NCBI GenBank assembly: GCA_016839945.1
Contig: JAEOTE010000090.1
Location: forward strand, 67,414-108,398
Direction: 5' to 3'
From: Candidatus Heimdallarchaeota archaeon
GTDB taxonomy: Archaea; Asgardarchaeota; Heimdallarchaeia; Heimdallarchaeales; Heimdallarchaeaceae
Length of the DNA stretch: 40,985 bases
Under the pieces are notes generated by a model, which did not search any database, was not told the DNA's origin, and worked only from the letters and a program-made list of their open reading frames with translations. Position numbers and translations under genes: made by a program. Each line of letters opens with the position of its first letter. Position 1 is the first letter of the stretch. Below, piece by piece: positions 5,186 through 33,341 of this stretch.

Positions 5186-5278
5186 TGGCGGACCAGGCAG
5201 GATTTGAACCTGCGACCTCTGGCTGTCTTCAGCTAACTTCCGAAGGCCAGTGCCTTATCCATACTAGACTACTGGTCC
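5186..5278 (-). tRNA. tRNA-Arg(UCG) with a 15-nt intron, CCA encoded
   Basis: On the minus strand the acceptor stem GGACCAG (5278-5272) pairs with CTGGTCC (5196-5190), the T-arm reads GCAGG-TTCAAAT-CCTGC, and discriminator G plus CCA are encoded (5189-5186). The anticodon stem CTGGC/GCCAG encloses 22 nt instead of 7. Removing 5225-5239 leaves the canonical loop CTTCGGA with anticodon TCG at 5243-5241, reading CGA (Arg). The junctions form a textbook archaeal bulge-helix-bulge: bulge GG|A, four-pair helix CTTC/GAAG, bulge AC|A, cut after nucleotide 37. Splicing endonuclease and ligase must act in trans; neither is in the window. Confidence 0.95.
5225..5239 (-). other. tRNA-Arg intron (bulge-helix-bulge type, position 37/38)
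   Basis: This 15-nt insertion (minus-strand sequence AAGTTAGCTGAAGAC) lies between tRNA nucleotides 37 and 38, the commonest archaeal intron position. Its GAAG pairs with anticodon-loop CTTC to form the four-pair central helix between two 3-nt bulges. Its length is near the minimum that can form this motif. Confidence 0.88.
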
Positions 5279-22951: not shown

Positions 22952-24745
22952 TTATTTGCTACTTCTCTTTGCGGTTTCAATAACTTCTTTTGCAATTTTT
23001 TCATTAACCGAAATAAGTTTCATTATTTCTTCTATATTTGCAGAAGCAATGTTTTTTATGTGTTGATACTCTTGGAAAAGGAGAAAAACCTTTGCTTTTC
23101 CTATTCCTTTAATTCTTTCAAAGTTAGAACTTTTGACTGTTCTTGCTCTTAGAGTTTTATGATAACTAATTGCAAATCTATGTGCTTCATCTCTTACATT
23201 CTGAACCAATTTTAGTACAAAAGAATCTTGATCGAGGGTTATTGGTAAATCTAACCATTCTACATATATTTCTTCATTTTTCTTAGCAATGCTTATTGCA
23301 GGAATACTAAGGTTCAGCTTTTTCAAAACTTCTAAAGCAATATTCAATTGCCCCTTACCACCATCAATTATTAGGAGATTAGGCAATGGATCAGACTTCA
23401 GAATATCAGAACTGTATTTTCTTTTTATTACTTCTTCCATCATAGCATAATCATCAGGATCCGTATAAGAACCTCTAATACGAAATCGTCTGTACAGATC
23501 CTTCTTAGGTTGTCCATCAACAAAAGCAACGCAAGAGCCAACTGAAAGTTGACCTTTCAAGGTTGATATATCAAAACCGTGAATTATTGTAGGTTCTTCA
23601 GATAATTGAAAAAGCTCTTGCATTTCTTTGAGAACTAATTTTGAATCCTTTTCATATTTAATATCTCTTAAAAATTTGAAGAGCTCTGCCCTTGCATTTT
23701 TCTTAGCAATGTCAACTAATTGGTTACTTGTATTATCTTTAGGGAAGACTATTTTTAGATTAATATTAGGATTGAAGCGCTTTGTAAAATCATCACTAGT
23801 TAAAATGCTTTTAATAGATTCAGTTGTCCCATATATGAATACTAGAATCTCACTTAATGTCTTAAAAAGGATTTTTTCACTTTTTGATGTTATATAATTC
23901 TTAATGTTTTGGACTCTATGATTACGTACTTCCAGCTTGCAAAATGCTAGATTTGGTTCTTCTTCTACAAATGCTAGAACATCAATATTCTTTATTTTAG
24001 AATGTAAATCCTCTTGCAGATTAAGTATTGTTCTTACAGATTGAGTAAGATCTCTAATAATTGTAGCTCTTTCGAAATCAGCTTCTTCAGATGCAGACCA
24101 CATTTCTTTTTCAAGATTATCTAAAAGATCAGCTACATCTCCATTTAAGAACGAGATGACATTTTTCACAGTTTTTGTGTATTCTTCAGTGGAAATATCG
24201 TTTTTACAGGGAGCTAAACACCTATCTAATCTTTCTCTCATGCATCTGATTGAAGATTTCTTTATTCTTAAATTCTCTACGTTTTTTCCACAATTACAAA
24301 TTGGAAATAGTCTTAAAACTAATTTGACTGTTTGCCTAAGCATTATGTTACTTGGAAAGGGACCGAAATAGATGTTTTTCTTATTTCTTGGATCTGTTTC
24401 TCTAACAATTAAAAGCTGAGGATATTTTTCTATCAAAGTTATACAAATTAGAAGATTCGATTTATCATCTTTTAGCATGCTATTAAATTTTGGTGATAAT
24501 TGTTTCACAAGTTTTTCTTCTAGAATAATAGCTTCTGATTCGTTTCTTGTTAAAATCCAATCTACCCTAGTAGCTAATTCTTGAAGCTTTTCTTCTCTTG
24601 GTAGTGACACAGCTTGAAAATGTTGTTTTACTCTTTTTTTCAGACTCTTTGCTTTTCCAACGTATATTACAATATCTTCTATGTCTTTGATTAAATAAAC
24701 ACCAGGATCGTTAGGTAATTCTTCTAAGTCTGAAAAAAGACTCAT
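22952..24745 (-). CDS. uvrC: UvrC excinuclease subunit
   Basis: UvrC makes both incisions around bulky DNA damage after UvrB has loaded. The 597-residue protein has an N-terminal GIY-YIG-type nuclease (GVYLIKDIEDIVIYVGKAKS), the Cys-rich cluster region IRCMRERLDRCLAPC plus CNCG (Fe-S type), a UVR helix (EEADFERATIIRDLT), the RNase H-like second nuclease with HGFDIS, LLIIDGGKGQL and RDEAHRFAISYHK, and a C-terminal helix-hairpin-helix (IKGIGKAKVFLLF). The first catalytic Asp, second Asp and His are all present. It overlaps uvrB by one base (TAATG). UvrABC is of bacterial origin in archaea. UvrA is outside the window. Confidence 0.96.
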   Translation of the reverse strand: MSLFSDLEELPNDPGVYLIKDIEDIVIYVGKAKSLKKRVKQHFQAVSLPREEKLQELATRVDWILTRNESEAIILEEKLVKQLSPKFNSMLKDDKSNLLICITLIEKYPQLLIVRETDPRNKKNIYFGPFPSNIMLRQTVKLVLRLFPICNCGKNVENLRIKKSSIRCMRERLDRCLAPCKNDISTEEYTKTVKNVISFLNGDVADLLDNLEKEMWSASEEADFERATIIRDLTQSVRTILNLQEDLHSKIKNIDVLAFVEEEPNLAFCKLEVRNHRVQNIKNYITSKSEKILFKTLSEILVFIYGTTESIKSILTSDDFTKRFNPNINLKIVFPKDNTSNQLVDIAKKNARAELFKFLRDIKYEKDSKLVLKEMQELFQLSEEPTIIHGFDISTLKGQLSVGSCVAFVDGQPKKDLYRRFRIRGSYTDPDDYAMMEEVIKRKYSSDILKSDPLPNLLIIDGGKGQLNIALEVLKKLNLSIPAISIAKKNEEIYVEWLDLPITLDQDSFVLKLVQNVRDEAHRFAISYHKTLRARTVKSSNFERIKGIGKAKVFLLFQEYQHIKNIASANIEEIMKLISVNEKIAKEVIETAKRSSK

Positions 24746-26718
24746 TAATTCGACACCATTCTTTCAAGTTCTTTTATTTTATCTCTATATATAGCTGCTT
24801 TTTCGAAATCAAGTTTTCCAGCAGCTTCAGCCATTTTTGTTTTGAGATCTTCAATTACATATAGAATGTCATCACTTGTTAAATCCTCTGGGATCTCTAT
24901 TTTTTCCTCCTCTTTTGGTGTTACTTGCATTAATGTTTCAACAATCGATTTAACTTCTTTACTAATCGTTTTGGGTGTAATTCCATGTTTTTCATTATGT
25001 TCTTTTTGAATTTGTCTTCTTCTATTGTTCTCACTAATTGCTTGCATCATTGAATTAGTTAGATTATCAGCAAATAGAATAACACTTCCATGAACATTTC
25101 TGCTTGCTCTTCCCATTAATTGGATAAGTGAAGTTTTAGATCGTAAAAAGCCTTCTTTGTCTGCATCCAGAACTGCTACAAGTGCTACTTCAGGTAAATC
25201 CAAACCTTCTCGAAGAAGATTAATTCCAACTACTACATCATACTTACCCAACCTAAGATCTCTCAAAATATCAATTCTTTCTAAAGTATCCACTTCATGG
25301 TGTAAATACACAGATTTAACTTTCATATCAAGAAGATAATCAGATAACATCTCTGCACTTTGTTTAGTTAGAGTTGTTACCAAAACTCTTTCTCCTTTAC
25401 TTGTCCTTTGATTTATCTCACTCAGGAGATCCGTGATTTGGTCATCAGTACCTCTTACTTCAATCTTAGGGTCCACTAATCCAGTAGGTCTAATTATTTG
25501 TTCAACAATCTGATTAGAAACATTATACTCATACGGACCAGGAGTTGCGCTTGTGAACATTGTGTTCCTCATATATTTCTCAGTTTCTTCAAATTTGAAT
25601 GGACGATTATCAAAAGCGGAAGGAAGTCTAAATCCATAAGTAATCAAATTGTTTTTTCGAGAATAATCTCCTGCATACATTCCTCTTAACTGAGGTATTG
25701 TTAGATGAGATTCATCGATAAACAATAGAAAATCTTCTGGGAAGTGGTCAAGTAAAGAATAAGGTTTCTCTCCCGGCTTTCTTCTATCAAAATGACGTGA
25801 ATAGTTCTCGATTCCAGGACATCCTCCAGTTTCTCGTAGAAGCTCTAAATCGTAGAGCGTTCTTTGTCTTAGCCTATGTTTCTCAATTATTTTTTCTTCT
25901 TTTTCTAGTTCTGCTAAACGCATATCTAATTCTAATTTTATATCTTCCAAAGCTGTTTCGAAGAATGCATCGTTTGCAAGATATTGAGTCCCTGGAAAGA
26001 TTGAAAGGTAATCGTAATCTTTTATTTTCTCCCCAGTTACAGGATGACGAGCTGTTAAACGTTCAATTTCATCCCCAAAGAATTCAATACGATAAATATA
26101 ATCTCCGTACAAAGGAAAGATATCTATTGAATCACCTCTAACTCTGAAGCATTTACGCTCAAGATTAACATCATTTCTTTCGTATTGGTTTTTTACTAGC
26201 TCCATCATTAAATCTTGTCTGTCAAGTGTATCTCCAAGCGCCAATGAAATTCTTCTAGAACGATATATTTCAGGAGGACCAGTACCATAAATGCAGGAGA
26301 CAGTAGCGCAGACAATTACATCATCTCTAGTAGCTAGTGCTTCAAGCGAAGTATGACGTAATCTCTCGATTTCTTCATTAATATCTACATCCTTCTCAAT
26401 ATACAAATCTTTGGAAGGCAAATATGCTTCTGGTTGATAGTAATCATAAAAACTAACATAATAATTTACGCTGGCTGAAGGAAACAGAGTCTTAAATTCA
26501 CCAAATAGCTGAGCTACAAGAGTTTTATTTGGACCAATTATTAATGTAGGTTTCTTGATAGTATCAATAACTTTAGCCATAGTGTAAGTTTTTCCACTAC
26601 CTGTTACACCTAACAATGTTTGAAATTTATTGTTATTCTTCATTCCATCTACTAGCTTTTTTATAGCTTTAGGCTGATCCCCTCTTGGTTTTAGTGGAGT
26701 CTCAATATCTAATGGCAT
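24745..26718 (-). CDS. uvrB: UvrB excinuclease helicase subunit
   Basis: UvrB is the damage-verifying helicase of bacterial-type nucleotide excision repair. The 657-residue protein shows Walker A LLGVTGSGKTYTMAKV, the beta-hairpin region YYVSFYDYYQPEAYLPS that probes the damaged strand, the Walker B FIDESH motif, helicase motifs TSATPGPYE and LVTTLTKQSAEML, VGINLLREGLDLPEV, QLMGRASRN, and a C-terminal UVR domain (AAGKLDFEKAAIYRDKIKEL) that contacts UvrC. All motifs are intact. It is immediately followed by uvrC with a 1-bp overlap. Confidence 0.98.
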   Translation of the reverse strand: MPLDIETPLKPRGDQPKAIKKLVDGMKNNNKFQTLLGVTGSGKTYTMAKVIDTIKKPTLIIGPNKTLVAQLFGEFKTLFPSASVNYYVSFYDYYQPEAYLPSKDLYIEKDVDINEEIERLRHTSLEALATRDDVIVCATVSCIYGTGPPEIYRSRRISLALGDTLDRQDLMMELVKNQYERNDVNLERKCFRVRGDSIDIFPLYGDYIYRIEFFGDEIERLTARHPVTGEKIKDYDYLSIFPGTQYLANDAFFETALEDIKLELDMRLAELEKEEKIIEKHRLRQRTLYDLELLRETGGCPGIENYSRHFDRRKPGEKPYSLLDHFPEDFLLFIDESHLTIPQLRGMYAGDYSRKNNLITYGFRLPSAFDNRPFKFEETEKYMRNTMFTSATPGPYEYNVSNQIVEQIIRPTGLVDPKIEVRGTDDQITDLLSEINQRTSKGERVLVTTLTKQSAEMLSDYLLDMKVKSVYLHHEVDTLERIDILRDLRLGKYDVVVGINLLREGLDLPEVALVAVLDADKEGFLRSKTSLIQLMGRASRNVHGSVILFADNLTNSMMQAISENNRRRQIQKEHNEKHGITPKTISKEVKSIVETLMQVTPKEEEKIEIPEDLTSDDILYVIEDLKTKMAEAAGKLDFEKAAIYRDKIKELERMVSN

Positions 26719-27154: not shown

Positions 27155-27424
27155 ATGGAAAAAATGTTGAATGCAACAAGTTTAGGAGAGACGCAATTAC
27201 TTAAAATCAATGTTAAAATTCCACATCAAAAAAGAGCTTTAGTAATGTTGGAAAGTTCTGATATTCAAGTAAGAATGATGGGATATGCACTCTTAACTAC
27301 TTGTTTTCATTTATGTTCATCAGAAACTAAAAAATATGTTTATAAAAAGTGGAAACAAGAAGAAGTTGGTAAAAAATTCAAAAAAACTTTCATAATTTAT
27401 TGTGAAAAAATCTTTGCACGATAA
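27155..27424 (+). CDS. Small helical protein of unknown function
   Basis: This 89-residue protein is basic, with a central helix pair (KRALVMLESSDIQVRMMGY, ALLTTCFHLC) that has the spacing of a single HEAT-like repeat. A TTAAATACTT element about 20 bp upstream of the ATG would suit a leaderless message. It ends 1 bp before the stop of the convergent HEAT-repeat gene at 27426. It may be linked to that operon, though on the other strand. No domain is recognised. Confidence 0.45.
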   Translation: MEKMLNATSLGETQLLKINVKIPHQKRALVMLESSDIQVRMMGYALLTTCFHLCSSETKKYVYKKWKQEEVGKKFKKTFIIYCEKIFAR

Positions 27425-27425
27425 T

Positions 27426-28196
27426 TTACAAATTCATATTCTCAGCAATGGGGAAGTATTTTGGGAAAATCAATTTTGCGAAGTTTTGATACATTTCCAC
27501 ACTATAATCTTTTTGTTCAATTAAATCCTCTAGTTTAACTATTTCAGATTCATTGTATCCTTTCATATTGGGGAATTGGTTAAAATCACCATAATCAAGA
27601 ATCTTGCAGAAGATTTCACCTAATTGATCTAACTCAAGATAAGATTCTATAATTATGTGGATATGGTGAGTAAGTTTTTCTATTTGTTCTTCAGCTTTTA
27701 CTGAATTAGAAATTCTAATCACTGACAAAATAGCTGCTCGCCTTGTTATGTAATCTTCTGCATAAACTACGTTTGTGAGAGGGTACAATACATCAGCATC
27801 ATCCAGATATCCTATAGCTCTTATTGCAGCATATTGTAGATCATAACCGCTTTCTTCTAGTACCTTAACAAGATAAGGCTTAGACGAATAATCCTTCAAT
27901 TTTCCTAGAACTTCTAAAGAGGATAATTTGATTGCTAAAGAACTCCTTTCAATTAAATCGTGCAGGTATTCTAACACTTTCTCCTTTGTTTCAGGAAAAT
28001 GCTCTATAAGATAAATCAATGTCAAAGATGCTGCATTTCTAACATTCCAATCCGCATCTTCTATTAGAGGAAGAATTTTCTTAACATTCCTTGTTTTAGG
28101 TTTTTTCTGTAGAAAAAGCGCAAAGTGTGCTCTATCTAATGGTTCATCACTTTTCAGTTTTTTTCCAATAAGCATCCCTTTAAAGAAATCCATCAT
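27426..28196 (-). CDS. HEAT-repeat protein, last gene of the pseudo-Arf/MoxR/VWA operon
   Basis: The 256-residue protein consists of helical HEAT repeats through residues 35-175: LIEDADWNVRNAASLTLIYL, SSLAIKLSSLEVLGKL, SGYDLQYAAIRAIGYL, AEDYITRRAAILSVIRIS. The paired-helix pattern with Asp/Arg turns is clear. The last 80 residues are helical and not repeat-like. It has no catalytic motif; HEAT proteins are scaffolds that bind partners. It overlaps the upstream 524-residue gene by 4 bp (ATGA). The second Met (28193) is an alternative start. Its place suggests a scaffold for the AAA+/VWA machine. Confidence 0.75.
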   Translation of the reverse strand: MMDFFKGMLIGKKLKSDEPLDRAHFALFLQKKPKTRNVKKILPLIEDADWNVRNAASLTLIYLIEHFPETKEKVLEYLHDLIERSSLAIKLSSLEVLGKLKDYSSKPYLVKVLEESGYDLQYAAIRAIGYLDDADVLYPLTNVVYAEDYITRRAAILSVIRISNSVKAEEQIEKLTHHIHIIIESYLELDQLGEIFCKILDYGDFNQFPNMKGYNESEIVKLEDLIEQKDYSVEMYQNFAKLIFPKYFPIAENMNL

Positions 28197-29767
28197 AGCT
28201 CATATACCCCCTCTTTAATTAGATATGCTAAAGCTCCCCTCTGGGGTTGTGTAACTTTACGTAAGTATGTGTAATCAATCTTACTTACATCGATTTTTTC
28301 ATCCTTCTCATCGTCTAAATCAAATTTGTATGCGTCCTTCTTCTTTGTAACTTGTACAGCTCTTGTTGCGATTGGTAAATTATAAGGAGATAAAGGTTGA
28401 TACTTTGTTTTATGAACTGCAAAGAGTGTTGCTACATGTATGCCACCAAGTTTCTTGAATATCACAACATCAGCAAAAGCAGGCAGAATTGTTCGAAAAT
28501 CATCTCTATAAAGAGACATGTGATTGTGGAGGATAACTAGTTGATCAATCCCAATTCCATAATCATTAACTTCAAAGACATATACTTTCTTTTCTCCCAC
28601 CTTAACATAACCTTTTGAGTTTATCCTTGGTTTATCATCAAGGAGTTGTCCGAAAGTTGAGTATTTTTTCCTATATACTTTTCGTGTATATTCTTCTATT
28701 TGTCTCCAGCCATAGGCATAAACAGACCAAATATCTGTCCATCTACTTTTTGAAGAATGCCAGGTTTCAACAACACTTTCAGAATGTACATTCTTATTCA
28801 CTGCTAGTAAATCTTTAACTTCATCCCATGAGAATTCTTCTAACAGTTCATAATCCGACTTGTAGCTAAAAAGTTTATTAAACAATTCCTCCTCATTTTC
28901 TAGTTTGCTTAGGAGTCGTTCTATTATAGCAATAGTAAATTCACCAATTGGTGGTGCTAAAAAGGCTTTCAAATCGTTTGGATATTGTATTCTTTTATCT
29001 TCATCTCTCTTAGGTAGTTTATATTCATCTTTCTCAAGTAAATAATCTAAGGCTTTCATTTGTATATAGTGTGCAAAACCTTCATCGATTATTTCATGAA
29101 GGTGCTTTTTTCTTGCAAGTTTAGCCCTTTCCCCTATCAGATTTATGGCCTCTATTGAGAAATTATTGAACAAAGTATATTTTCTTGCATCTTCAGGAGG
29201 AGTGTAAAAATCTTCTACGTTTGCTTCAGTAAATAAACGTATCACACCGATTAGATCTTGGAAGTATTGCCAAGCCCAGGCATGTTTGTTGTCAGATGTT
29301 TGATTTAATTTGAAGACATTATTTACCATCAACTCCTTTAAAATCACATCAATTTGATATAGTTTTGAAAGAGTTCTTGCAGAGTTTGATTCAGTCTTTT
29401 CATTCATGTAAGCATGAGCAAAAGCATGAATTAGCATAATTCTTAGTGTAAGTTCTTGTTCTTTTGTCAATTCATAAGATGGTACTGAGAGATAAATCAA
29501 TGTAGGTAATGAATTATATACGGTTTCTTTTCCTGTTGGAAGAAAATCATTTATTCTAGCTGATCTTAGGTTTGTAATTTGTTCAGCTGTCAGTATTGCC
29601 TGAGGGGTTCCAGTTATTTCAACTACACGGTTAACTGAAACATGGAGTTCAGGATTTATAAAGATTAGAACACGATAATTTTCTGGATTAGAACCCACTA
29701 AAACTCTAAAATCTGCCTTAGCTTTTTGGTAGACTTCAACAATTTCTTCTAGTTCAGCTTTAAGCAT
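28193..29767 (-). CDS. Uncharacterised 524-residue protein with zincin-like HAFAH motif
   Basis: I do not recognise a family. Residues 108-125 read LRIMLIHAFAHAYMNEKT, which looks like a zincin helix with the catalytic Glu of HExxH replaced by Ala (His114, Ala115, His118). About 110 residues later, IIDEGFAHYIQMKAL resembles the third-ligand EGxAxY element of gluzincins. The rest is alpha/beta: an N-terminal 100-residue domain, a helical middle, and a C-terminal domain (about 385-524) with strands such as VKVGEKKVYVFEV and HVATLFAVHKTK. No membrane segment is present. It overlaps the VWA gene by 8 bp and the HEAT gene by 4 bp. The zincin reading is tentative. Confidence 0.55.
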   Translation of the reverse strand: MLKAELEEIVEVYQKAKADFRVLVGSNPENYRVLIFINPELHVSVNRVVEITGTPQAILTAEQITNLRSARINDFLPTGKETVYNSLPTLIYLSVPSYELTKEQELTLRIMLIHAFAHAYMNEKTESNSARTLSKLYQIDVILKELMVNNVFKLNQTSDNKHAWAWQYFQDLIGVIRLFTEANVEDFYTPPEDARKYTLFNNFSIEAINLIGERAKLARKKHLHEIIDEGFAHYIQMKALDYLLEKDEYKLPKRDEDKRIQYPNDLKAFLAPPIGEFTIAIIERLLSKLENEEELFNKLFSYKSDYELLEEFSWDEVKDLLAVNKNVHSESVVETWHSSKSRWTDIWSVYAYGWRQIEEYTRKVYRKKYSTFGQLLDDKPRINSKGYVKVGEKKVYVFEVNDYGIGIDQLVILHNHMSLYRDDFRTILPAFADVVIFKKLGGIHVATLFAVHKTKYQPLSPYNLPIATRAVQVTKKKDAYKFDLDDEKDEKIDVSKIDYTYLRKVTQPQRGALAYLIKEGVYEL

Positions 29768-31145
29768 AAAGTATACTCTCCTTTAGAATTTGTTCACCTA
29801 ATTTCTTGATTTGAGCTGGATCAATTAAAATTGGTCTAGTAATACCTTTCAGCATTTGTTTTGTATGAATGTATAACTCTTTGTTGCGGAGTGACTCAGT
29901 TCCCATCAAGAAGTAAGATACGTTCCATTTCCTTGAGCGATCTTTTTTCAAGCTTGTAAAAATAGCGTTGAGTTGAACTAAACACTCTATTGTTTCTGGT
30001 TTTGTTTTGGTTTGTATTTCAGAGAAATATCTTGTTAATGCATCACTTTTTCGATAATTAAATGGAAGAGTTGGAACATTAGGCATACCATCTGTTACTA
30101 TGGTGAATTGAACATCTATGTCTTTGTCTGTATGTTGTTTTTTTGCATGTTCAATTGCAGCTTGAACGGCTTGAACCATGTATGTCTTTCCTTTAGCTTC
30201 TGCAGATAACAGGAGATGTTCCATTTTTTTATCATCATCTACAACTGTTGTATTTTTTCTGATAGGTACAACTGCAAGTTTGAACATATCATGACGCTTT
30301 CTTTTTCTTCTGTTTATCAGTTTAAAATAGTAATAAAGACTTAAACTTGTTAATAGAGCTCCATCTAATCTAGACATTTTGCCCTCAAAAACAGTTTTTC
30401 TCATTGATTGACTCATATCGACAATGAGATAGACTAAAGATCGTCTGTCTTTCTTTACTCTTACTATATCTTCTTGCTTAACTGAGGATGGAGGTATGGT
30501 TTGAGAGCCAAGAATTGCGCTTTTGTAGGTTTCTTTTAAACGGATAGTTCCACTTGGACGTTTTTGGACTTCATCAATGGGTGCAACAGAAATTTGTTTC
30601 AATAGATATCGACCTAATATTTTCCCAAGTAAATCCATGACACTTTCTCGTGAAATCCTCTTTTTTCTTCCAAATGCATCAGTAATTTCTATATCTACTA
30701 TGTCTTTTAGTTGATTTAATTTATCTGCTAGTTGCTGCAAATCGACAGTGCCTTCGTGTTTTAATTCACGTAATAAATCTTGTATATACTTTAGAATGTC
30801 CTCGAGTGTTTGTAGCTCATTACGATTAACTCGTTCTAAAACATCAGGAAGAACATGATCTCCCATAAATCTTAGAAGTTTCAGTTCATTTACTAAACGT
30901 TCTTCTTCTTCAGGAGTAAGATATGTATTCATGATTTTCTGAAGTATATTTTCGATAGCAACAGAGTGTTTTGCTGCAATTGATAGAACTGCCCCTTCTC
31001 GAGAACTTCTACCTAAATGCGGATTTCTCCATAACCGTAAGACTTGAGCAGCATCCTCAAAATCCAATACAAACTCTACATCACCATAGTGTTGTAATGG
31101 ATCAGTGAATTCAGTTTCTGTAATGAAATATATTCTATGAGGCAA
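29760..31145 (-). CDS. VWA-domain protein, MoxR partner
   Basis: The 461-residue protein has a helical N-terminal half (about 30-230) and a C-terminal von Willebrand A domain. The metal-ion-dependent adhesion site is complete: LIVDMSQSM (Asp243, Ser245, Ser247), Thr321 in GKTYMVQAV, and Asp352 in FTIVTDGMPN. VWA proteins of this sort work with MoxR AAA+ ATPases, as in RavA-ViaA, BchI-BchD and NorQ-NorD. The start is a TTG at 31145 with GGAGATGA just upstream as a Shine-Dalgarno sequence. It follows the AAA+ gene by 35 bp and overlaps the next gene by 8 bp. Confidence 0.85.
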   Translation of the reverse strand: MPHRIYFITETEFTDPLQHYGDVEFVLDFEDAAQVLRLWRNPHLGRSSREGAVLSIAAKHSVAIENILQKIMNTYLTPEEEERLVNELKLLRFMGDHVLPDVLERVNRNELQTLEDILKYIQDLLRELKHEGTVDLQQLADKLNQLKDIVDIEITDAFGRKKRISRESVMDLLGKILGRYLLKQISVAPIDEVQKRPSGTIRLKETYKSAILGSQTIPPSSVKQEDIVRVKKDRRSLVYLIVDMSQSMRKTVFEGKMSRLDGALLTSLSLYYYFKLINRRKRKRHDMFKLAVVPIRKNTTVVDDDKKMEHLLLSAEAKGKTYMVQAVQAAIEHAKKQHTDKDIDVQFTIVTDGMPNVPTLPFNYRKSDALTRYFSEIQTKTKPETIECLVQLNAIFTSLKKDRSRKWNVSYFLMGTESLRNKELYIHTKQMLKGITRPILIDPAQIKKLGEQILKESILYA

Positions 31146-31180
31146 TTTATCATCTCCAAACGGTTATTATCAGATTGTTA

Positions 31181-32728
31181 TTAGATATAGTCAACTTTCA
31201 GTAGCTGTTCATAAGATGGTTTAAGTTTTTCAGTTATTAATTCTCTAATATTTTCTTTGAATTTGTCTAATCCTTCAAACTTAACAATCAATTGAGCTAA
31301 TTCTTCATCACTTAGAGCTTTCATTTTTGAGATATCTTCGGAGATATCTTGAACGCTTATTGAAACCTCAGATTCTTTTATTGCGGTTCTTAGAACAATT
31401 TTCATTTGTTGTAAAGCATCGTTTATCATTGAAACGGGTATATCATATGCACCCATTATGTTCCTAATTCTTTCTAGTGTAATAACGTTAACATCTTCTT
31501 CTATTTCTCTTGCTTGTAAGAGAACTGTCTCACCAATAATATTGTTCATGGTTCGAAGATCGATATGAGGATTTCTTTGAGGATCATGAATTTCATCTAA
31601 ACCCGAATAAAAATCGTTTCTAGCAACACGGCTTTCTGAGCGTAATCCTTTTGTTTTTAATGTTCCAGGTAAGGAATTGTTTCCAAGAAATGCTAGAAAA
31701 GCAACTGCTAAACGACTAACGAAATCTGTTGTTTCTTTTTCTAGTTCATGAAGCTGTATAAGTGAGGGATTAGCTGTAATCTTCTTCCTTGAAAGGATGA
31801 TTTGTTCTTCAAACATATCCTTAATAATTTGTTCTCTACTCTCAACTGAACGAGCTGGCCAGAGTACTTCTGGAATACGATTAATAATAGGTTGGCTTTC
31901 TTCTCCAAAAACAGTGAGTGGTGCATTAGATGTGAAAAGAACTGCTCCATCAATATAAACGGGTTCTCCTTGTATATTATACTTGATACCCATTGGTTCT
32001 TCTAGAAAGCCCATAAGTGATTCTAGCAAGGTTAATGGAAGTCTTTGAATTTCATTAACAACCAAAAAACCATGTGATAGAACTCCAACTTTATGTGATG
32101 TTGCAGCATAAGTTGTTGAAGTATCTTTACCAAATAGTTCTTCAAGATTTTCAACGCCTGCTAGGAGCATGTATAAGCTTTCTGGATCAGTTCTTGGATC
32201 AAGTTGAGATCTTCTAACTAGTGTTTTTTGAGCTTTAAGCTTTCCTAGTTTACTAACTACATCTTTTGGTGTTATTTGTAAAACACTATTTGTATTATCT
32301 AGTTCCACAGGATTATTTTCGCCTGAGAGAGTTTTTTCGATACTTTGTCTACAATATGGACATAAAGATTGTAGAACGCGAATACCAGCAAAAGGATTGG
32401 ATTGAAAGTTGTTTATAATGTCTACAATATATCCCGCATCTTCTAAGAAAGGACATCCTTCTATGTGATATTTATAATTGTTAATTTCTCTAACAACATG
32501 ATCGAGTAATACTCTAGCGAAAAGTGTTTTTGCTTCCCCTGTAGGTCCTGTAAGTAGTACTTTACCACCAACTGCTAATTTATCCATTACTAGATTCTTA
32601 CCTACTTCATTACCTCGTACACTAACGTCTTTTAACACTCTATCTCTAAATTCTGGATTCATTAAGATTGATCTAATTGAGTATCCAGAATATCCATCTT
32701 TCATTAATTTCTCTATAGTTTGAGTCAT
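31181..32728 (-). CDS. MoxR-type AAA+ ATPase
   Basis: The 515-residue protein has Walker A GPTGEAKT, the Walker B segment GFLVVNEIQRLPLTLLESLM, a sensor-1 FTSNAP, and an arginine-finger/sensor region around IINRIPEVLWPARS. The usual Walker B Asp is Asn (VVNE; codon AAT), which would weaken Mg binding. Between Walker A and Walker B lies an unusual insertion of about 110 residues with a possible zinc site (His-x3-Cys near residue 100, CPYC near 132-135 of the longer form). The ATG at 32728 is preferred over 32755 because AGAGGT lies upstream at normal spacing. C-terminal 200 residues are helical. It is the probable motor for the VWA protein. Confidence 0.82.
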   Translation of the reverse strand: MTQTIEKLMKDGYSGYSIRSILMNPEFRDRVLKDVSVRGNEVGKNLVMDKLAVGGKVLLTGPTGEAKTLFARVLLDHVVREINNYKYHIEGCPFLEDAGYIVDIINNFQSNPFAGIRVLQSLCPYCRQSIEKTLSGENNPVELDNTNSVLQITPKDVVSKLGKLKAQKTLVRRSQLDPRTDPESLYMLLAGVENLEELFGKDTSTTYAATSHKVGVLSHGFLVVNEIQRLPLTLLESLMGFLEEPMGIKYNIQGEPVYIDGAVLFTSNAPLTVFGEESQPIINRIPEVLWPARSVESREQIIKDMFEEQIILSRKKITANPSLIQLHELEKETTDFVSRLAVAFLAFLGNNSLPGTLKTKGLRSESRVARNDFYSGLDEIHDPQRNPHIDLRTMNNIIGETVLLQAREIEEDVNVITLERIRNIMGAYDIPVSMINDALQQMKIVLRTAIKESEVSISVQDISEDISKMKALSDEELAQLIVKFEGLDKFKENIRELITEKLKPSYEQLLKVDYI

Positions 32729-32744
32729 GGGAGGTACCTCTTTT

Positions 32745-33341
32745 TTATTTATCATTCTCTTCTTCTGAAGGAATTTGAATCTTAATTGGTTTTATTTTTT
32801 CTAATAATTTTTCTTTTTCCGACCAAGGTTTAACATAACCCATATGAATTATCTGTTTCAACCACTTTAATACATCATGCATTGATTCTTCGTTGGATAT
32901 TTCAAAAAGATTCCAAAGACGATCTGTGAGTCTTATCAGAGATAAGTTCTCGATTAGTTCTCCTCTAGATAATGCTCCTTGAAGCTCGGAGTTATAAGCA
33001 CATACAGCTATTGGTAAGTTCTTGGTCTCTTCTGCCCAGACAACCTTTTCCCAAAAATAATTTCTTTCATGTTTAATCATTTCTTCTTTTGTAGCATCTA
33101 TCAGATAAAGAAGTGCTTCAAAAGGTAGGAATTGTTTAGGTTTAAATTTAAATTTCTCTGTGTATGGTAATTCTGTTAAGCAACTATCTATTATGTATTC
33201 TCTTAGAGAAGTATAGGATCGTAACAATAAAACTCGGTTTCTGGTTGTGGGTATATCATTTCCCATAACCAGTATTGTTACTTCCGGGTAACCTAGCTTT
33301 CTTCGAATAGATTGTGAAATATTTTGGATGAAGTTAGTCAT
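32745..33341 (-). CDS. Degenerate Arf-like GTPase (pseudo-GTPase), first gene of the operon
   Basis: The 198-residue protein aligns by eye with Arf/Sar GTPases from residue 74 on: ALLYLIDATKEEMIKHER matches the Arf IFVVDSxDrxRxxEa segment, then NLPIAVCAYNSELQGALS matches the p.lv.aNKqDlpgA stretch, and LTDRLWNLFEISNEESMHDV with LKWLKQI matches the C-terminal helices. The P-loop is lost (MGNDIPTTRN at 26-35 in place of GxDxxGKT), switch II DxGG is missing, and NKxD reads YNSE. It is therefore predicted not to bind or hydrolyse GTP normally. It has no signal peptide and lies 16 bp before the MoxR gene. Descent from the Arf family is inference from pattern. Confidence 0.6.
   Translation of the reverse strand: MTNFIQNISQSIRRKLGYPEVTILVMGNDIPTTRNRVLLLRSYTSLREYIIDSCLTELPYTEKFKFKPKQFLPFEALLYLIDATKEEMIKHERNYFWEKVVWAEETKNLPIAVCAYNSELQGALSRGELIENLSLIRLTDRLWNLFEISNEESMHDVLKWLKQIIHMGYVKPWSEKEKLLEKIKPIKIQIPSEEENDK

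Follow-up and report, generated by a model that had tools for sequence, protein, structure and literature searches.

A Five-Gene Unit of Heimdall Archaea as a Probable, Highly Divergent PrkA-YeaH-SpoVR Module with a Pseudo-Arf and a HEAT-Repeat Protein

Our question was what kind of system is encoded by five closely packed genes of a Candidatus Heimdallarchaeota archaeon (contig JAEOTE010000090.1), in which the gene of an Arf-like protein precedes those of an AAA+ ATPase, a protein with a von Willebrand factor A (VWA) domain, a 524-residue protein with a zincin-like motif and a HEAT-repeat protein. The genes lie within a stretch of 40,985 nucleotides that was analysed as a whole and that we call the window. 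An earlier sequence-only reading had treated the AAA+/VWA pair as kin of RavA-ViaA, BchI-BchD and NorQ-NorD, and knew of no described version of the combination. We consider it probable that the unit is a Heimdall-specific, highly divergent form of the PrkA-YeaH-SpoVR module, with a pseudo-Arf and a HEAT protein predicted to dock the machine. PrkA-YeaH-SpoVR is a widespread bacterial ATP-driven stress-response machine; to our knowledge its mechanism is still unexplained, and SpoVR is, as far as we know, a long-unexplained bacterial family.

The core trio and its probable canonical counterparts

For the comparison of profiles, 18 PrkA, 16 YeaH and 13 SpoVR sequences made up the canonical set; they come from E. 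coli K-12, bacterial plasmids, phage records and one genome of the Heimdall class (G062). In the first profile-profile run each of the three core proteins matched its own counterpart, with P values of 3.2e-9 for PrkA, 7.8e-6 for YeaH and 6.2e-4 for SpoVR, while the controls, six off-diagonal and nine reversed pairs, gave 0.0098 or worse. With more Heimdall sequences the values became 1.2e-10, 7.8e-6 and 4.5e-4. Here no off-diagonal pair was better than 0.015, and in 40 column shuffles of each the lowest values were 0.017, 0.095 and 0.049, in the same order. The values quoted for SpoVR and YeaH were only obtained with the broader canonical set that includes Thermomicrobium and phage sequences; an initial hhalign comparison with few sequences was weak (0.03 and 0.046).

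The AAA+ protein (P0002; 31181..32728, minus strand) is 515 residues long from its conserved ATG. When PrkA was split, its AAA part alone matched the Heimdall AAA+ profile at 2.1e-11, and this profile also matched single PrkA sequences from a Thermus phage (9.1e-11) and from Thermomicrobium (6.2e-8). The Heimdall-type sequences share a cysteine insertion, with CPxxED in 51/57 and [LS]CPxC in 52/57, and P0002 itself carries GCPxxED and LCPxC. Among the 18 canonical PrkA sequences, LCPxC occurs in 7 and the first CP in 10, which come from Bacillota, Thermomicrobium, Thermus phages and one uncultured phage. The 8 that lack the first CP, among them E. coli, carry SP in its place, so that the E. 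coli type has serine where the Heimdall protein has its first cysteine. Walker A is found in 55 of the 57 sequences and NEI[QH]RL stands at the place of Walker B in the same number. The structure model of P0002 has an AAA+ fold (predicted local distance difference test score, pLDDT, 80.5), and its matches in Foldseek and VIA were HslU, ClpX, Skd3, sigma54 activators and NorQ. The PrkA entry 9xip of the PDB, found by sequence, is absent among the structure matches listed, so the fold comparison could not tell PrkA apart from the rest of the AAA+ proteins. Sequence searches of the PDB with the AAA+ protein, the AAA+ profile and the 524-residue protein returned no clear relative. Judged from profiles and motifs, the kinship of the AAA+ protein to PrkA is firm.

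The VWA protein (P0003; 29760..31145, minus strand) has 461 residues, a TTG start and the features of the YeaH/YhbH (DUF444) type. Its family carries DxSQSM in 19/19 and TDGxP in 17/19 aligned sequences, and its profile matches a single YhbH at 9.4e-4 as against 0.38 for ViaA. In the Pfam scan P0003 reached 18.1 bits for VWA_2, under the cut-off of 27, and did not reach the cut-off of DUF444 (PF04285). A relationship to YeaH/YhbH is suggested with fair confidence.

The 524-residue protein (P0004; 28193..29767, minus strand) was given no convincing family by Pfam or NCBIfam. Against its profile the N-terminal part of SpoVR scored 5.5e-4 and the middle part 9.8e-6, whereas no shuffle was better than 0.044 and the lowest value among 59 SpoVR shuffles that returned one was 0.047; the C-terminal part of SpoVR was not matched (0.16). 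The H-x3/4-H site of SpoVR, followed by EG, is matched in register, and canonical SpoVR itself bears a similarly degenerate site. Together with the gene order, this gives moderate support for kinship to SpoVR. The description of P0004 as zincin-like and degenerate holds, with HxxxH present and the catalytic Glu of HExxH absent in 42/42 sequences that have residues there (HExxH in 0/42). The protein thus looks like a dead gluzincin, differing from M1 aminopeptidases, leukotriene A4 hydrolase, M32 and M61 in having no catalytic Glu. Both His residues are lost or altered in 7 of the 42 sequences. In one family (f3, loci L024, L026 and L028-L032) parts of the H-x3-H/EG site are lost and the operon is retained, which argues that the SpoVR-like protein must work without that site. 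A Foldseek search with the 524-residue model gave nothing at E 0.001, nor did a PDB search with canonical SpoVR at E 0.01.

Several results weigh against a kinship with PrkA and YeaH. The single E. coli PrkA did not score against the AAA+ profile (0.013), nor did the single E. coli YeaH against the VWA profile (0.3), and between canonical YeaH and ViaA there is a match of 3.4e-5. We take this to mean that it is the Bacillota and phage type through which the proteins are related, and that the VWA signal is partly generic. Pfam and NCBIfam scans of the five proteins named nothing of the trio. P0002 had no AAA_PrkA (PF08298) hit, its only Pfam match being Sigma54_activat at 21.1 (cut-off 20.2). 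Of four distant Hodarchaeal-type relatives scanned, two gave weak AAA_PrkA hits below the cut-off of 25 bits (P0194 at 18.2 and P0196 at 16.2), which speaks for the link to PrkA, and two had no hit (P0188 and P0195). The kinase-like C-terminal domain of PrkA (PF06798) was not matched in P0002, with 0.31 in hhalign and no Pfam hit. Since the Pfam cut-offs are not reached and the C-terminal parts of both PrkA and SpoVR are unmatched, we regard the trio as a variant and not as a filed member of these families.

Within the phylum, canonical PrkA (PF08298) was found in 16/227 genomes at E 0.001 with 4 above cut-off, and SpoVR (PF04293) in 5/227 with 2 above cut-off (G062 and G097). None of the 56 genomes of relatives, our own included, has canonical SpoVR above cut-off. 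As a separate observation, G062, an assembly of 860 contigs, holds E. coli-like PrkA, YeaH and SpoVR genes (L047 and L174), for which contamination or transfer is possible. Also, 16 phage records match PrkA, among them Thermus phages and uncultured phages of about 595-642 kilobases (kb) (L067-L074), and most of these phage PrkA genes have YeaH- and SpoVR-type genes nearby.

The profile-to-profile search that the sequence-only reading had recommended linked each core protein to its own PrkA, YeaH or SpoVR counterpart and did not bear out the RavA-ViaA link, the AAA+ profile matching a single RavA sequence at 1.9e-4 over 23 Walker-A columns only. NorQ-NorD and RavA-ViaA also differ in the third protein and in gene order. 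The AAA+/VWA/SpoVR-like trio is best explained as a far-diverged PrkA-YeaH-SpoVR, at least as far as the sequences can tell, and not as kin of RavA, BchI or NorQ. The core would therefore be a divergent form of a module already described, in its canonical order, and the earlier view that no described version exists is not supported. It shares the succession of AAA+, VWA and third protein with that module (YeaG, YeaH and YcgB in E. coli; PrkA, YhbH and SpoVR in Bacillota), as well as the cysteine signature of Bacillota/Thermus-phage type PrkA and the H-x3/4-H/EG site of SpoVR. The order PrkA-YeaH-SpoVR with short gaps is seen in four annotated bacterial records, while in E. coli ycgB is separate from yeaGH and in Thermus phages the VWA-type gene, SpoVR and PrkA are arranged in a different order. 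YcgB, YeaH and YeaG have been described as a triplet whose members are conserved together (PMC2375023). Compared with that module, the novelty lies in two added conserved partners, the pseudo-Arf and the HEAT protein. Within the open-licence literature we found no published account of an Asgard or Heimdall version of this combination.

The added partners and the conservation of the unit

The first gene of the unit (P0001; 32745..33341, minus strand) encodes 198 residues, of which 74-163 match Pfam Arf (PF00025) with 28 bits over a cut-off of 22.3. The family profile finds Arf1 in the PDB at 3.7e-10 across the domain, and a conserved SLxRxTDRxW of the family aligns with the C-terminal region of Arf. 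The protein differs from Arf/Arl GTPases in the loss of the P-loop: GxxxxGK[ST] occurs in 0/69 Arf-like sequences (the window's own included, some redundant) and in none of four further unlinked copies, and the string [NT]KxD, counted regardless of position, occurs in 5/69. The earlier description as Arf-like yet lacking the GTP loop was therefore right. Because the P-loop is missing in 69/69, GTP switching by this protein is unlikely. The last gene (P0005; 27426..28196, minus strand; 256 residues) encodes a HEAT-repeat protein, as had been proposed, with HEAT_2 (PF13646) at 2e-14.

The open reading frames and their translations confirm that all five genes lie on the minus strand from 33341 to 27426, with gaps of 16 and 35 base pairs (bp) and overlaps of 8 and 4 bp. 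The spacings, in gene order, are +16, +35, -8 and -4 bp, and the first of them holds because the AAA+ gene begins at the conserved ATG at 32728. Its frame is open to 32755, while the start of the relatives corresponds to residue 10, which is 32728. This start is backed by frames of 513-530 residues in most loci and by a consensus that begins at the same Met.

The unit is not peculiar to this genome, so the refuting outcome that the sequence-only reading had named, an order confined to it, did not occur. A search of the 227 genomes of the phylum with the AAA+ profile gave 42 with a match at E 0.001. Two were set aside, a match being counted as usable from 250 residues upwards: in G009 (E 2.9e-4) the match spans some 60 residues, and in G049 it spans 34 where the contig stops. 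Neighbourhoods were compared in all of the remaining 40, which belong to a single class, the Heimdall class, and to ten genera; within that class the profile had no match in 12 listed genomes of family f5, in both of f7 and in two of f6 (G046 and G047). The claimed AAA+/VWA pair is supported by its motifs and by position, the VWA gene standing after the AAA+ gene in 40/40 genomes (in G028 the AAA+ gene is split across two contigs). The SpoVR-like gene is next in 35/40, the other 5 loci ending at a contig edge with the gene found on another contig. The HEAT gene comes next in 31/40 with a spacing of -8 to +12 bp, and the remaining 9 loci are cut before that point. Wherever contigs permit, the order AAA+-VWA-SpoVR-like-HEAT is unbroken, which supports one conserved unit.

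The upstream side is visible in 39 genomes (G006 is cut), and in 32 of these the Arf-like gene is the immediate upstream neighbour, in the same orientation. In the other seven it sits elsewhere: on another contig in G023, G024 and G030, on the opposite strand 1.8 kb upstream in G026, and on the same contig about 6 kb past the SpoVR-like gene in G025, G027 and G029, the matches in G025 (1.3e-5) and G029 (1.2e-4) being weak. None of these seven members has a P-loop either, and all 39 genomes that have the module and in which the protein could be sought contain a pseudo-Arf. Five genomes without the module were tested. The best match to the Arf-like family in G035, G037 and G053 is a real Arf with an AGKTT loop, G055 has no match, and G062 has one.

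AAA+ identity drops with taxonomic rank, from 85-94% within the genus through 68-70% within the family to 52-54% within the class, as in vertical descent, to judge by these sequences. Protein searches for relatives, which are word-based in sensitivity and in the case of the AAA+ protein scored the best 7997 candidates, found 26 relatives for the 524-residue protein, 56 for the Arf-like protein (counting the one in the window) and at least 109 for the AAA+ protein. In all three, wherever a listed match gives an organism, it is an Asgard archaeon; Hodarchaeota and Promethearchaeota are represented among the more distant AAA+ relatives, at 35-45% identity.

Three other features of the window can be mentioned here. 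A convergent small open reading frame of 89 residues (27155-27424, plus strand) terminates a single base short of where the HEAT gene ends. Beside the unit, at 22952-26718 on the minus strand, are two frames with a one-base overlap whose products resemble the excision-repair proteins UvrC and UvrB. ARAGORN reports a transfer RNA at 5186-5278 on the minus strand, its type not called, with the four-base anticodon string tcgg.

Other explanations and a possible mechanism

It could be argued that only the core is a PrkA-YeaH-SpoVR relative, and that the genes of the Arf-like and HEAT proteins merely share its transcript while serving other functions. The seven of 39 genomes with a non-adjacent Arf-like gene, three of them on another contig, speak for this, as does the lack of any Arf or HEAT gene beside the trio in the four annotated bacterial operons. 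However, all seven retain a P-loop-less member, four of them on the same contig, and HEAT follows closely in all 31 loci that are long enough, which makes this explanation unlikely in our judgment. We see even less reason to favour a separate MoxR/VWA/zincin machine that is independent of PrkA-YeaH-SpoVR, for which a pair found in the Asgard genomes G093 and G094 could be an example. Compared with the Heimdall profiles this pair gives 0.028 for MoxR, 0.25 for VWA and 0.15 for the zincin part, far worse than PrkA, YeaH and SpoVR.

The least probable explanation, to which we give very little weight, is a MoxR-vWA-centred ternary conflict system used in defence, such as VMAP. VMAP systems are described as having the same two core kinds of protein and a third conserved protein (PMC7159879), and it is distribution only that sets our unit apart from them: it occupies one place per genome in one class, with identity falling by rank and a fixed order, unlike the patchy and variable conflict loci.

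The G093/G094 loci (L178, 5311-8814; L179, 5280-8783) represent another Asgard family. There the gene directly after that of MoxR encodes a 584-residue protein with the zincin motif HEIGH and, at its C-terminus, a VWA domain. This different MoxR-VWA pair bears a HExxH that looks intact. A 583-residue protein of G092-G094 that the SpoVR-like profile matched weakly was rejected as a MoxR ATPase with a short shared C-terminal stretch (G093 and G094 were read).

Returning to a diverged PrkA-YeaH-SpoVR module with two added partners, we can outline how it might work. The presence of Walker A in 55/57 AAA+ sequences, of NEI[QH]RL at the place of Walker B in 55/57 and of DxSQSM in 19/19 VWA sequences makes it likely that an ATP-driven ring acts with a VWA protein. 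The PrkA-like ring and its partner would spend ATP on remodelling the SpoVR-like pseudo-metallopeptidase, which would be the client or effector of the motor, and the five proteins would form one complex. Force may pass from the ring to the VWA protein much as for NorQ-NorD, whose mechanical model has a finger of the VWA protein inserted in the pore of the ring, and a linker that is twisted (PMC13036017). The pseudo-Arf would hold the HEAT protein or a membrane without a GTP switch.

The process served could be a stress or starvation response, an idea borrowed from E. coli YeaG/YeaH and Bacillus PrkA. In the E. coli study YeaG and YeaH are linked in the survival of nitrogen starvation, yeaG and yeaH mutants are alike in recovery from it, and kinase activity is argued for (PMC4664914). 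For a Bacillus PrkA, a recent study reports an AAA+ protein whose protease activity is negligible and in which kinase activity was not detected (PMC13001217). As a whole, we only tentatively put forward that Heimdall archaea built an Arf-family protein into an ATP-driven remodelling machine as a permanent, GTP-independent subunit, forming with the HEAT protein a platform by which a PrkA-YeaH-SpoVR motor is placed at a membrane or client, with SpoVR as its dead gluzincin client or effector.

Meaning for the family and for Heimdall archaea

The diverged version indicates which parts of the machine are held constant, namely the AAA+ core including the cysteine insertion, the metal motif of the VWA protein and, in most lineages, HxxxH/EG. 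The kinase-like domain of PrkA is not among them. For SpoVR it offers a concrete hypothesis, that of a dead gluzincin. Heimdall archaea are close relatives of eukaryotes, and an Arf-family protein without a GTP loop that is kept across an archaeal class near eukaryotes bears on how small GTPases were recruited. If the reading is true, Arf-family proteins would have steered AAA+ machinery in archaea, outside eukaryotes.

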